A stretch of DNA of 64,000 nt from contig NZ_CP030064.1 in the NCBI RefSeq assembly GCF_003990725.2, positions 868,001 through 932,000 on the forward strand. The letters run 5' to 3'. The notes under the pieces were generated by a model. It searched no databases and was not told the DNA's origin. It saw only the letters and a program-made list of their open reading frames with translations. The position numbers and the translations under genes were made by a program. Position 1 is the stretch's first letter. Each line of letters begins with the position of its first letter. Source of the DNA: Halorubrum sp. PV6. Lineage in GTDB: Archaea; Halobacteriota; Halobacteria; Halobacteriales; Haloferacaceae. Below, in pieces: positions 4,326-9,065 of the stretch.

Positions 4326-5216
4326 TCACTTCACATCTGAACTTGAAGCGCGGGACAGCAGATACACCGCGATTCCGCCCAACACGAGGTCGAGTGCGAC
4401 GAGGACGGCGACACCGGGAACCACGCCGTCGAGTGTCCCGCCGAACCACGATACGTCGAGGACCGTCATCACATCCTGATCGATTATGAGCGAGCGCGCA
4501 GCGTCGACGCCGTACGTGACGGGATTGAAACGGGCGAACGTCTGCACCCAACCGGGAAGCGCTGCGAGTGGGAGAAACGCACTCGACAGGAACAACAGCG
4601 GAAACTGCAGCAGGTTCGCGCCGATGATCGTCGATTCCTGATCGCGCGTGATGATCGCTAACGCGTTCGAGAGGGCAACGAACCAGAGCGAGAAGAGGAT
4701 CCCGACGGCGACAATGCCGACGACGCCGACGATGCCGGTGACGATCTCGGCACCGAGGAGGACGCCCAGTCCGAGAATGATCACAATCTGAACCGCAATC
4801 CGGAACACCTCTGCGGCCGTCTTCCCGACGAAGACGGCCGTCCGGTTCATCGGCGTGACGAGCACCTTCTCGAACATCCCGTTCTCGATATCGTTGACCA
4901 GGCCCACACCCGAGGTGATAGCCGCTGCGAGGGCGACCTGAATCGCAATCGCTGGCACCAGATACGTCTCGTAACTGACCCCTGGAAGCCCCTGATTAAC
5001 AGCGCCGCCAGCCACGTTCCCGAACACCTCCGTGAACAGTACGAGGAAGATGATCGGCTGGACGAGCGAGACGACCAAGACGAACGGGTTCCGGACGGCC
5101 TTGAGGTTCCAGCGTTTGAAGTTCACCCAGACGTCCCCGACGAAGGAGTTCCCCGACCGGGCGACCGGTCGTGCCGAGTCTGCATCCGCTCTCTCCTCTG
5201 TCTCCGGCGCACTCAT
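4326..5216 (-). CDS. ABC-2 family exporter permease (DrrB-like)
   Basis: The 296-residue membrane protein has a hydrophilic N-terminus and about six transmembrane segments in the ABC2_membrane arrangement, with the family-typical ENGMFEKVLVTPMNR loop following the second segment. It lies 8 bp downstream of the ATPase gene that ends at 5225, so the two form an operon and should assemble as an exporter of the daunorubicin-resistance (DrrAB) type. The substrate is unknown; the family ranges from antibiotics to lipids. Co-control with the oxidoreductase operon at 6866 through a shared palindrome points to a xenobiotic or toxic metabolite, which is inference. Confidence 0.92.
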   Translation of the reverse strand: MSAPETEERADADSARPVARSGNSFVGDVWVNFKRWNLKAVRNPFVLVVSLVQPIIFLVLFTEVFGNVAGGAVNQGLPGVSYETYLVPAIAIQVALAAAITSGVGLVNDIENGMFEKVLVTPMNRTAVFVGKTAAEVFRIAVQIVIILGLGVLLGAEIVTGIVGVVGIVAVGILFSLWFVALSNALAIITRDQESTIIGANLLQFPLLFLSSAFLPLAALPGWVQTFARFNPVTYGVDAARSLIIDQDVMTVLDVSWFGGTLDGVVPGVAVLVALDLVLGGIAVYLLSRASSSDVK

Positions 5217-5224
5217 CGTCCAGC

Positions 5225-6271
5225 CTACATCTCGTCGGTGTCGAGTTCGTCGCCGGTGATAGCCAGGAAGACGTCGTCGAGCGTCGGTGCACGGATGTTG
5301 AACCCGGTCACCGTCAGGTCCGCGTCCCGGAGCGTCACGAGCAAGTCAGTTCCATGCTGGCGAGCGGCCTCCGCGGTGACGCTGATACCGTCATCCGTCT
5401 CGGTGACGGACGCGTCGGCGAACGCATCGAACTCTCGTGCGATCGTCGCGGCCCGTTGACGGGCACCCGAACCGCCCTCTACTTCCACCTCAAGGACCTC
5501 GCCGCCGACTTCGCGTTTGAGCTCCGCGGGACTCCCCTCTGCGACGATCTCTCCGTCAAGGATAACGGCGAGGCGATCACAGAGTTGGTCGGCTTCTTCG
5601 AGATACTGTGTGGTCAGGAAGATCGTCGTTCCGAGGTCGTTGATGCGCCGGAAGTAGTCCCACAGGCGGTTGCGGGCCTTCGGGTCCAGTCCGGTCGTCG
5701 GTTCGTCTAAGAAGACCAGTGGCGGGCGGTGGACCAGTGCAGTCGCGGCGTCCAGTCGCTTTTTCATGCCGCCCGAGAACTCCTCGGCCCGCTTGCTTGC
5801 GACATCGGCCAGGTCGACGAGGTCAAGTAGTTCGGTGACGCGCTCGGAGCGTTCTTCTCGCGGCACTCCGTGGGCCTCGCAGGCGAACCGGATGTTTTCC
5901 TCGGCGGTGAGCTCCGGATCGATGCTCGTCTCTTGGGCCATATACCCGATCGACTTTCTGATCTCGCGGGGGGCCGAGCGCACGTCGAAGCCGTTGACTC
6001 GGACTGCTCCGCTGGTCGGGGACAACAGCGTCGCAAACACCTTGATGGTCGTCGTCTTTCCTGCTCCGTTCGGCCCGAGGAACCCGAAGAACTCACCTTC
6101 AGGGACGCCCATCTCGATTCCTCGGACGGCAGCAGTCCCGTCGGAGTAGACGAGTTCGAGCCCATCGACCGCTATCGCAGCCGCGGAGCCTCCGACCGCG
6201 GCCGTTTCCGCCTGGGAGACGCCGTCATCTTCGGACGAGCCGGCGGTATCCGCCGATCCGGGTGGTGACAT
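5225..6271 (-). CDS. ABC transporter ATP-binding protein, DrrA family
   Basis: The 348-residue ATPase has Walker A GPNGAGKTT, a Q-loop (YMAQET), the signature FSGGMKKRLD and Walker B VFLDEPTTGLDP, followed by the H-loop region and a C-terminal DUF4162-type domain of about 90 residues typical of DrrA proteins. An N-terminal acidic/Ser extension of about 30 residues precedes the core. It is the first gene of the operon with the permease ending at 4326. Its promoter carries the palindrome ACTTCGAAGT at 6307-6316, just upstream of the AT-rich TATA region; the same element lies before the oxidoreductase operon. Confidence 0.95.
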   Translation of the reverse strand: MSPPGSADTAGSSEDDGVSQAETAAVGGSAAAIAVDGLELVYSDGTAAVRGIEMGVPEGEFFGFLGPNGAGKTTTIKVFATLLSPTSGAVRVNGFDVRSAPREIRKSIGYMAQETSIDPELTAEENIRFACEAHGVPREERSERVTELLDLVDLADVASKRAEEFSGGMKKRLDAATALVHRPPLVFLDEPTTGLDPKARNRLWDYFRRINDLGTTIFLTTQYLEEADQLCDRLAVILDGEIVAEGSPAELKREVGGEVLEVEVEGGSGARQRAATIAREFDAFADASVTETDDGISVTAEAARQHGTDLLVTLRDADLTVTGFNIRAPTLDDVFLAITGDELDTDEM

Positions 6272-6306
6272 ACTCTTACTATTGGATATGAAGTAATGTA
6301 CGTTCG

Positions 6307-6316
6307 ACTTCGAAGT
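6307..6316. promoter_or_regulatory. Palindromic operator ACTTCGAAGT before the ABC exporter operon
   Basis: A perfect 10-bp palindrome lies 36-45 bp upstream of the ABC ATPase start, next to the presumed TATA (around 6286-6300, minus strand). A half-site CGAAGTTA follows at about 6337. The same core occurs in the promoter region between the HxlR gene and the oxidoreductase operon (6811-6831). The position at the edge of the TATA/BRE would suit repression. Confidence 0.6.
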
Positions 6317-6341
6317 TTGGATCCTACTACAGAAATCGAAG

Positions 6342-6749
6342 TTAGAGTTCGTACTCGATTGCCCAGTGGTGAAGGTGGGCGAATACGGGGAACAGCGATT
6401 CCGCCTTCTCGGTCGGCGTGTACTCTACGCGAGGTGGGACCTCATCGTAGGCCTCACGATGGAGCAACCCTGCTTCTGTCAACTCCTGTAACCGCGTCGA
6501 GAGCGTGTTCGGCGCGATGTCGAGTTCGGTTTCGAGGTCACTGAACCGGAGGGACCCTTCGGTGAACGCGAACGCGCTCAGAACCGCCATCGTGTGCGCC
6601 TTCCCGAGGAGATCGAGCAGTGCTGCGACGGTGTGGTTGATGCGCTCCTGCTCTTCGGGGGCGAACGATTCGCGAAGGGCGATCGCTTCCTCGCGGGACA
6701 GTCCCGCACTCAAATCGGGCACGTCCGGCGGATTGTTCGGTCTAGTCAC
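6342..6749 (-). CDS. HxlR-family winged-helix transcriptional regulator
   Basis: The protein (135 residues from GTG 6749; TTG 6758 is an alternative) ends in an HxlR domain: LGKAHTMAVLSAF, the recognition helix region FSDLETELDIAPNTLSTRLQ, and the wing VPPRVEYTPTEK. HxlR proteins bind DNA as dimers and many sense electrophiles through Cys, but this one has no cysteine at all, so it must sense something else. It sits between the ABC operon and the divergent oxidoreductase operon, both of whose promoters hold AACTTCGAAGT-type palindromes, so it is the obvious candidate regulator of both and of itself. Confidence 0.9.
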   Translation of the reverse strand: MTRPNNPPDVPDLSAGLSREEAIALRESFAPEEQERINHTVAALLDLLGKAHTMAVLSAFAFTEGSLRFSDLETELDIAPNTLSTRLQELTEAGLLHREAYDEVPPRVEYTPTEKAESLFPVFAHLHHWAIEYEL

Positions 6750-6810
6750 GATATTCAACTATCGTCGCTTGTGAATTTGTATCTTTGGGTTTGAGTCGTC
6801 TCAGGCGCTA

Positions 6811-6831
6811 ATACTTCGAAACTTCGAAGTT
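6811..6831. promoter_or_regulatory. Double palindromic operator in the HxlR/oxidoreductase intergenic region
   Basis: AACTTCGAAGTT (6820-6831) is a perfect 12-bp palindrome preceded directly by a second overlapping ACTTCGAA half (6813-6820). It abuts AGTATATACT (about 6835-6844), a TATA box 25-30 bp before the ATG at 6866. The HxlR gene starts in the other direction at 6749, with an AT-rich stretch near 6770-6785 as its likely TATA. The site can therefore affect both promoters. Confidence 0.65.
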
Positions 6832-6865
6832 ACAAGTATATACTCTCAGAGGTGGTATTTCGTGT

Positions 6866-7522
6866 ATGCGAATCGCCGTATTCGGTGCGACCGGACGAAC
6901 CGGGCACCCACTCGTCGAACAGGCAGTCGAACGCGGACACGAAGTGGTTGCGTTCGTCCGGGATGCAACCGGCCTCTCATCCACACTTCGGAACGACGAC
7001 CGAGTCGATATCGTCGAGGGAGACGCTTACACCGGCGAGGGTGTCGAACGCGCCATCGCTGGTGACGGCACCCCCGTCGATGTCGTCGTCAGCGTCCTCG
7101 CCCAGACGTCCGATGGGCCGGACGATCTGCTGACAGAAGCCGGCCGACACATCCTTTCAGCGATGGACCAACACGGCGTCGAGCGGTTCGTGACGCTGGT
7201 CGGTGCGGGCGTCCGGGAAGAGAGCGAATCGGTAAGTCCCGGCGGACGCATGATGGGCGCGCTGTTGAAACTGCTCGCACGGTCGGTCCTCGAAGACGCC
7301 CGAGACCAGGTCGAACTCCTTCGAGACAGCGACACTCGATGGACGGCAGTTCGGGGACCCCGGCTCACCGAAGACGCCCACACCGGTGAGTTCCGTCACG
7401 GGACGGACCTGATGCTCGGAATGCGCGACACCGCAGGGCGAGCGAACGTCGCCGAGTTCATCCTCGACTGCCTCGAAGACGACCTGTACGTCCGCGGAAT
7501 GCCGAAGGTGGCAGACGCATGA
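6866..7522 (+). CDS. NAD(P)-binding atypical SDR / NmrA-like oxidoreductase
   Basis: The 218-residue protein begins with a Rossmann motif GATGRTG and fits the NAD(P)H-binding (atypical short-chain dehydrogenase, biliverdin reductase/NmrA) family, without a YxxxK catalytic pair. The ATG sits 25-30 bp from the TATA at 6835-6844, so the mRNA is probably leaderless. It is the first of three genes; its stop overlaps the next start (ATGA). Regulation by the adjacent HxlR protein is inferred from the palindrome upstream. Substrate unknown, possibly a quinone or other electrophile. Confidence 0.88.
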   Translation: MRIAVFGATGRTGHPLVEQAVERGHEVVAFVRDATGLSSTLRNDDRVDIVEGDAYTGEGVERAIAGDGTPVDVVVSVLAQTSDGPDDLLTEAGRHILSAMDQHGVERFVTLVGAGVREESESVSPGGRMMGALLKLLARSVLEDARDQVELLRDSDTRWTAVRGPRLTEDAHTGEFRHGTDLMLGMRDTAGRANVAEFILDCLEDDLYVRGMPKVADA

Positions 7523-7932
7523 CGACCGTCGAACACACTGCGGCCCGGTCACCCTCCGTGCCGGTTCGAGGCGGGCTTGCCGTCGTCCTCGCCGTACTCG
7601 CCAACGTGGTACTCGTGGCTGGCGTGGACGCCCTCGGTATCGCTCCGGCGTTCCGCCCGTTGACTATCCCACCCGTTGCGTTTCTGTCGGCGCTCGGCGC
7701 AGGCGGGGGGACGGTCGCCTACTGGCTTCTCGACCGGTACGTCAGTGACGCTGATCGGACGTTCGTCCGAGTAGCCGCTGGCGTACTACTCCTCTCGTTT
7801 GTCCCCGACCTTGCGTTGCTCGCAGTCGATCCGGCTGCGACCCCGATCGCCGTCGTCGTTCTCATGGCGACGCACGTGGTCGTCGCAGCGGTGTCGGTCT
7901 GGGCGCTCCTCTCTTGGAGGGTCGAACAGTGA
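7519..7932 (+). CDS. DUF6069-type four-helix membrane protein
   Basis: The 137-residue protein has four hydrophobic segments (about residues 18-40, 48-72, 82-102 and 110-132) with short polar loops, and resembles DUF6069 proteins, which are small integral membrane proteins of unknown function often found beside NmrA/SDR oxidoreductases. Start and stop both overlap their neighbours by four bases (ATGA at 7519, GTGA at 7929), so it is translated as part of the operon. Confidence 0.82.
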   Translation: MTTVEHTAARSPSVPVRGGLAVVLAVLANVVLVAGVDALGIAPAFRPLTIPPVAFLSALGAGGGTVAYWLLDRYVSDADRTFVRVAAGVLLLSFVPDLALLAVDPAATPIAVVVLMATHVVVAAVSVWALLSWRVEQ

Positions 7933-8813
7933 CAGAGTCGATACTCGTCACCGGAGCGACCGGAACCGTCGGTCAGCATGTCGTCGCCGCTCTTTCAGAC
8001 CGCGCCGTCAGTATCAAGGTGGGCGTTCGTGACCCCGAGACCGTCTCGACCGAGATCGCGGACGCGGGAGAGGTGATTGCGTTCGATTTCACGAAGCCGG
8101 AAACGTGGGGTCGTGCGCTAAGAGACGTCGACAGAATGTTCCTCGTTCGACCGCCGGTCGTGGACAAATCGAAGATTGGCGAGTTCGTCGAGGCTGCGGA
8201 CCGCCAGGGTGTCGCCCGTGTCGTCTACCTTTCGACGCTCGGTGCAGAGAAGAACGTCCTCATCCCTCACCACTGGATCGAGAACCGAATCACGGCGACG
8301 AATATGGAGTACACGCTGCTGCGCGCGTCCTTCTTCATGCAGAACCTCTCGGAGGTGCACCGTCGGGACGTCGTCGACCACGACGAGATTTTCGTGCCGG
8401 CTGGGAGCGGGAAGACCAGTTTCGTGGACGCGCGGGACCTCGGCGAGGCAGCGGCAGTCGTGCTGACCGAGTCCGGTCACGCGAACAAAGCCTACGAACT
8501 CACGGGGCCGGAGGCGCTGGACTACGGGGCGGTCGCCACCATCTTCAGTGACGTCCTGGATCGATCCATCACGTATCCACAGCCGTCACTGTTGGCGTTC
8601 GCAACCCGCATGCGCCGCCGCGGTGAACCACTCGGATTCATCGCTCTCATGTGTGGTATCTACACGACTGCACGAGTCGGGTTAGCCGGGCGTGTCACCG
8701 GCGATAGCCGGCGGCTACTCGGGCGACACCCGCGACAGGTGCGTGCGTTCGTCGAAGACTATGCGGCGGAGTTTCAAACCGGTGGTGACGCGTATACGCG
8801 TAACCAGCCGTGA
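7929..8813 (+). CDS. NmrA-family NAD(P)H-dependent oxidoreductase (azoreductase-like)
   Basis: I place the start at GTG 7929 (MTESILVTGATGTVG), overlapping the previous stop by four bases; 294 residues. The N-terminal GATGTVG Rossmann motif, the VYLSTLGAEKN strand and the substrate-domain residues LLRASFFMQNL match the NmrA/NAD(P)H-azoreductase group of atypical SDRs. Proteins of this group reduce quinones or azo compounds or act as redox sensors; activity here is not proven. It is the last gene of the HxlR-linked operon. Confidence 0.9.
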   Translation: MTESILVTGATGTVGQHVVAALSDRAVSIKVGVRDPETVSTEIADAGEVIAFDFTKPETWGRALRDVDRMFLVRPPVVDKSKIGEFVEAADRQGVARVVYLSTLGAEKNVLIPHHWIENRITATNMEYTLLRASFFMQNLSEVHRRDVVDHDEIFVPAGSGKTSFVDARDLGEAAAVVLTESGHANKAYELTGPEALDYGAVATIFSDVLDRSITYPQPSLLAFATRMRRRGEPLGFIALMCGIYTTARVGLAGRVTGDSRRLLGRHPRQVRAFVEDYAAEFQTGGDAYTRNQP

Positions 8814-8990: not shown

Positions 8991-9065
8991 TGGGCGCTGC
9001 AGGATTTGAACCCGCGACAGCTTGGTCCGAAGCCAAGCACTCTATCCAGACTGAGCTAAGCGCCC
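8991..9065 (-). tRNA. tRNA-Arg (anticodon TCG)
   Basis: On the minus strand the 5' end GGGCGCT (9065-9059) pairs with AGCGCCC (8998-8992), with discriminator A at 8991. The D-arm, the anticodon stem CTTGG/CCAAG with loop CTTCGGA (anticodon TCG) and a T-arm with GGTTCAAATCC are all present. No intron and no encoded CCA. A TATA-like CTTAAC lies about 27 bp upstream on this strand (near 9092). Confidence 0.96.

Follow-up and report, generated by a model that had tools for sequence, protein, structure and literature searches.

In the 64,000-nucleotide stretch of the Halorubrum sp. PV6 genome analysed here (the window), a locus encoding an HxlR-type regulator, an exporter and two reductases appears to form a local circuit for detoxification whose general type is known, with a newly defined candidate binding site. 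Very probably, a local, ligand-responsive HxlR dimer binds to an 18-bp inverted repeat at the promoter of the reductase operon and to a weaker array of sites at the promoter of drrAB. The regulator gene hxlR (6342–6749, minus strand) starts with GTG at 6749, with TTG at 6758 as a possible alternative. Its product was assigned to the DUF24/HxlR winged-helix regulators by Pfam PF01638 (E=4e-19; 68.6 bits versus a gathering score of 20.8), by B. subtilis HxlR as the closest solved structure and by its orthologues. Divergent from hxlR, on the plus strand, three genes form an operon with tight overlaps. SDR1 (6866–7522) encodes an NAD(P)H-binding reductase of the biliverdin-IX-beta/flavin reductase type (PF13460, E=1e-34; PDB 1hdo/6opl, E~1e-17), followed by the gene for a small DUF6069 protein (7519–7932; PF19545, E=2e-14) with 4-nt overlaps to both SDR genes, and by SDR2 (7929–8813), which encodes an NmrA-like reductase (PF05368; 2vrc, E=2e-24; 2zcu (ytfG), E=6e-18) with triphenylmethane reductase and E. 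coli QorB (YtfG) as nearest solved relatives. A tRNA-Arg (TCG) gene is found at 8991–9065 (minus strand), shortly 3' of the reductase operon. The exporter genes are located on the minus strand, like hxlR: drrA (5225–6271) encodes a DrrA-type ABC exporter ATPase (TIGR01188 drrA, 329.8 bits versus a cut-off of 312.45) and drrB (4326–5216) a DrrB-type ABC-2 permease (PF01061, E=1e-29). Classification as a DrrAB-type ABC-2 exporter is based on a DrrA above the curated cut-off with an ABC-2 permease as partner, the drrB model TIGR01247 scoring below its curated cut-off. Because several orthologous loci lack drrAB, the exporter is an accessory part of the circuit.

A preliminary description of this DNA had proposed the palindrome ACTTCGAAGT as a shared operator, and this word was indeed found at exactly 6307–6316 and 6821–6830, with HxlR encoded between the two sites (6342–6749, minus strand). 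The orthologous loci pointed to a different unit, however. HxlR orthologues were gathered from 170 family genomes and from the contigs of named genomes, which yielded 44 non-redundant loci; since these loci share ancestry, all conservation counts are non-independent. Comparison of about 30 of the haloarchaeal loci showed that hxlR and the divergent SDR gene are separated by a region whose conserved element is ACTTCGAA-NN-TTCGAAGT. The two middle bases are variable and read, in SDR orientation, AC (19), GC (4), GA (2), GG (2), TA, GT or AT. Since the spacer bases vary among the loci, ACTTCGAAGT is an accident of the AC/GT spacer. The expected conservation in orthologous loci was thus observed for the 18-bp form, whereas ACTTCGAAGT itself is disrupted in 11 of the 30, and with a variable spacer and the 10-mer missing this often, we rejected the 10- or 12-bp palindrome as the binding unit. 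The 12-mer version AACTTCGAAGTT is exact at 6820–6831 only, and the exporter copy reads GACTTCGAAGTT.

The double site that had been noticed between the regulator and the oxidoreductase operon, ACTTCGAAACTTCGAAGT at 6813–6830, corresponds to a complete operator, ACTTCGAA-AC-TTCGAAGT (O1; 6813–6830, plus strand; 16/16 match). It is followed by the BRE gap TACAAG (6 bp) and the TATA box TATATAC (together 6831–6843, plus strand), with a gap of 6 bp in all orthologues, and by a further 22 bp up to the ATG of SDR1, which is located 35 bp past O1. Contrary to the earlier impression that the palindromes touch the TATA box, both sites stop 6 bp short of it and abut the BRE. Across the orthologues, the distance from O1 to the SDR1 ATG is fixed at 35 bp, whereas the distance to the hxlR start ranges from 60 to 178 bp, indicating that O1 belongs to the reductase promoter. 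All 30 loci in which a divergent SDR gene adjoins hxlR have an operator with at least 13 of 16 matching positions, compared with 4 of the 14 loci without such a gene; among these four, L034 and L067 belong to a sister HxlR subfamily. L031 and L063 keep a 16/16 operator, with no SDR1 detected beside hxlR; at about 4800–4900 of L063, the SDR1 frame appears decayed at its start (ATG to CTG). The sister subfamily (L033, L034, L036, L066 and L067, two loci being titled Haladaptatus) has a related operator, 12–13/16 in most cases, before its own hxlR with a 6-bp gap to the TATA box, and a DUF6069 gene is located nearby in two of these five loci.

At the exporter promoter, the assumption of the same operator applies to one half-site. 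The TATA-proximal half TTCGAAGT (O2; 6307–6314, minus strand) is intact, whereas the distal half of the 18-bp frame (6307–6324) is degenerate (GGATCCAA), and the frame scores 12/16 against the 18-bp operator. A complete TATA-proximal TTCGAAGT (8/8) was found in 10 of 21 hxlR-drrA intergenic regions versus 0.5% of dinucleotide shuffles. The TATA box TACATTA (6294–6300, minus strand) follows 6 bp past the half-site, with the same gap in orthologues, and the drrA ATG is located 35 bp past the half-site in the window and 34–36 bp past it in most loci. Both promoters of the window therefore share one geometry, consisting of the half-site, 6 bp and the TATA box, with the ATG 35 bp from the half-site. 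The degenerate half is joined by a second conserved inverted repeat at 6326–6342 that was absent from the preliminary description. This distal repeat, ACTTCGATTTCTGTAGT (minus strand), is a degenerate version of ACTTCGA-NNN-TCGAAGT (11/14), 11 bp upstream of the proximal half-site, and its first base is the final base of the hxlR stop codon. At a fixed upstream offset of 28 bp, the 17-bp repeat reached a mean score of 10.5/14 in 18 loci, compared with 0.6–5.6 at all other offsets, and in Halorubrum sodomense (L048) it is perfect (14/14). As a genome-wide search word, the distal 17-mer was discarded, being non-specific at one mismatch even in genomes without this HxlR; for this reason, it is its position that makes the case for the distal repeat. 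Whereas the reductase promoter has one strong dimer site, the exporter promoter probably has two weaker ones.

The AlphaFold2 model of the HxlR protein (mean pLDDT 75) had 7bzd, 5hs7, 1yyv and 4hqe as top Foldseek matches, and its resemblance to HxlR, YodB, YtfH, HypR and the QsrR-DNA complex is consistent with a winged-helix fold. PADLOC returned only a weak Csa3 winged-helix match. The window protein contains no cysteine at all, and in the DUF24 cysteine column none of the 43 aligned orthologous sequences has a cysteine, the position being occupied by R, H, T, Q, E or other residues. The N-terminal sensing cysteine of the thiol-based DUF24 redox sensors is thus missing, in agreement with the preliminary description, which had excluded the thiol-sensing type for this cysteine-free regulator. 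Replacement of the cysteine column in all 43 sequences implies a different mode of sensing, most simply by a bound ligand. At its N-terminus (6645–6749, minus strand), the protein carries about 35 extra residues, PPDVPDLSAGLSREEAxALRESF..., which the orthologues conserve and the matched part of bacterial HxlR lacks; this extension is possibly a sensor or a dimer arm. The C-terminal HLHHW motif was considered as a metal site and rejected, as distant orthologues do not conserve it. In the literature searched, we found no relevant papers on haloarchaeal HxlR regulators, and no haloarchaeal HxlR operator.

The arrangement resembles qorB (ytfG) and ytfH of E. coli, where an HxlR-family regulator is likewise divergent from an NmrA-like SDR gene; SDR2 matches YtfG with E=6e-18 and the window HxlR matches YtfH with 39% over 76 aa. 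In contrast to the E. coli pair, which has no exporter, the archaeal locus includes drrAB, its first divergent gene is the BLVRB-type SDR1 with the QorB-like SDR2 in third place, its promoter is archaeal and its regulatory context differs. With YodB, CatR and HypR of B. subtilis and QsrR of S. aureus, the regulator shares family and fold, a dimeric winged-helix architecture, and reductase or detoxification genes as targets (PMC8063818), but these proteins sense via the N-terminal cysteine that the archaeal orthologues lack. The best sequence and fold match is B. subtilis HxlR, a formaldehyde-activated and positively acting protein. Its sensing by a Cys11-Lys13 cross-link (PMC7835342) is impossible in the window HxlR, and the target genes differ.

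According to the mechanism that we propose, an HxlR dimer would occupy ACTTCGAA-NN-TTCGAAGT directly upstream of the reductase BRE and would also bind a weaker array before drrAB, composed of the distal 17-bp repeat and one TATA-proximal half-site. Both promoters would produce leaderless transcripts, with a fixed geometry of half-site, BRE gap, TATA box and ATG. As the inducer, an aromatic or quinone-like compound would bind non-covalently, be reduced by the SDRs and be exported by DrrAB. The nature of the inducer is the weaker part of this proposal: the targets are flavin/biliverdin, triphenylmethane and quinone-type reductases together with DrrAB, which suggests an aromatic or quinone-like compound, going by the family membership of the target genes alone. 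As is characteristic of an operator, the inverted repeat is conserved upstream of the neighbouring target. In an HxlR-DNA complex, the recognition helices are 34.8 A apart, which is about 10 bp (PMC7835342). This separation fits the 18-bp repeat, with its half-sites one helical turn apart, and not the 10-bp palindrome.

Concerning the sign of control, activation via recruitment of TFB/TBP is slightly favoured, because every site is located upstream of the BRE and leaves the TATA box and the start free. The analogy is with the UAS of the activator GvpE at haloarchaeal gas-vesicle promoters: this 20-nt two-part element abuts the BRE, and its short distance from the BRE is critical (PMC4390858). 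GvpE itself is similar to a leucine-zipper protein and has no relationship to HxlR, so the comparison applies to geometry only. A more specific version, in which a cysteine-free HxlR activator responds to a non-covalent ligand and a BRE-adjacent dimer recruits TFB/TBP at two leaderless promoters of identical geometry, with half-site spacers of 4 bp (reductase) and 3 bp (exporter) and a two-step dose response, is put forward tentatively and is, as a whole, rather doubtful. If it is true, the 4-bp/3-bp spacer reading would give reduction first and export second.

The main rival is a repressor acting against TFB: the same regulator would use the same operator, but the dimer beside the BRE would hinder TFB/TBP until it is released by the inducer. 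Repression is a serious contender, although we rate it at somewhat less than an even chance. Most DUF24 proteins of known function (YodB, CatR and QsrR) repress, YodB and CatR acting on detoxification genes (PMC6212828; PMC8063818), a dimer next to the BRE might just as well obstruct TFB, and the reductase promoter comes with its own usable BRE-TATA (AAG-TATATA). On the other hand, none of the sites, all of them located upstream of the BRE, covers the TATA box or the start, and both the rigid spacing to the TATA box in two different promoters and the stacked upstream array at the exporter promoter speak against a repressor.

Activator and repressor alike presuppose that the locally encoded HxlR recognizes the repeat. 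The exact 18-mer was found in 11 of 170 family genomes and in 21 of 391 class genomes, as a single copy in each, and the reversed-pattern control yielded zero matches in the family and class genome search. All 21 copies precede an SDR1 gene, an NmrA-type gene or a remnant of one, and hxlR adjoins the site in 20 of these 21 genomes. In G161 (L135 and L025), the operator precedes SDR1 and SDR2 on a contig other than that with the HxlR orthologue and drrAB, which is a natural separation of the regulator from its target. It is improbable that the 18-mer is recognized by some other transcription factor with a gene elsewhere and that hxlR is its neighbour by coincidence. Every one of the 21 genomes with an exact site, including the one with split contigs, also has this HxlR subfamily, and the sister HxlR subfamily carries at its own promoter a site with the same geometry. 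The sequence comparisons demonstrate the sites themselves, with their conservation, fixed spacing and promoter specificity, and their linkage with this HxlR; we infer that HxlR is the protein that binds the operator. The earlier proposal of one operator type common to the reductase and exporter promoters was borne out, and this operator tracks the HxlR orthologue.

The genome itself (3.04 Mb, two contigs, the smaller replicon having 300 kb) contains no further 18-mer site with fewer than 3 mismatches; matches with 3 mismatches occurred at the control rate (5 versus 3) and were not accepted as extra sites. Three sites in the 3.04-Mb genome conform to TTCGAAGT-N6-TA, namely the SDR1 promoter, the drrA promoter and one intragenic site, which falls within a MetE-like gene and was dismissed as a regulon promoter. 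In ten HxlR-bearing relatives, nearly all matches to TTCGAAGT-N6-TATA/TATT are at the locus, and ten genomes without HxlR have scattered single matches; G162 has one additional half-site with a TATA box away from the locus. The 6-bp distance to the TATA box, fixed at both promoters, would also be expected if TTCGAAGT-N6-TATA were an extended core-promoter element, such as a BRE for a particular TFB, instead of an HxlR operator. We consider this very unlikely, because the distal half of the 18-mer shows the degree of conservation that a dimer site requires and because the element marks just two promoters in each genome and is linked to genomes with this HxlR.

The word ACTTCGAAGT occurs six times in the 3.04-Mb genome, twice at the locus, twice in chromosomal genes and twice on the 300-kb replicon. 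The replicon copies were rejected as regulon members, one being part of repeats upstream of an Orc1/Cdc6-type ORF and the other inside a glycosyltransferase-like ORF. Repeats of the TTTCATTTCGATGACGGGGTG form upstream of an Orc1/Cdc6-type ORF are found at L006:5160–5460 (second contig of G000) and probably represent an origin of replication of the 300-kb replicon. In Phe-Glu-rich coding DNA, TTCGAA is frequent, and two of the six 10-mers are inside chromosomal genes, but the probability of chance palindromes is negligible, as intergenic conservation at fixed distances over many genera leaves a footprint that refutes it.

For archaeal one-component regulators, few operators have been defined from sequence. 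At this locus, the operator site, its register, the spacing of BRE, TATA box and start, and the near-single-copy specificity are all fixed from sequence. Once the inducer is known, the system may provide an inducible promoter for haloarchaeal genetics.
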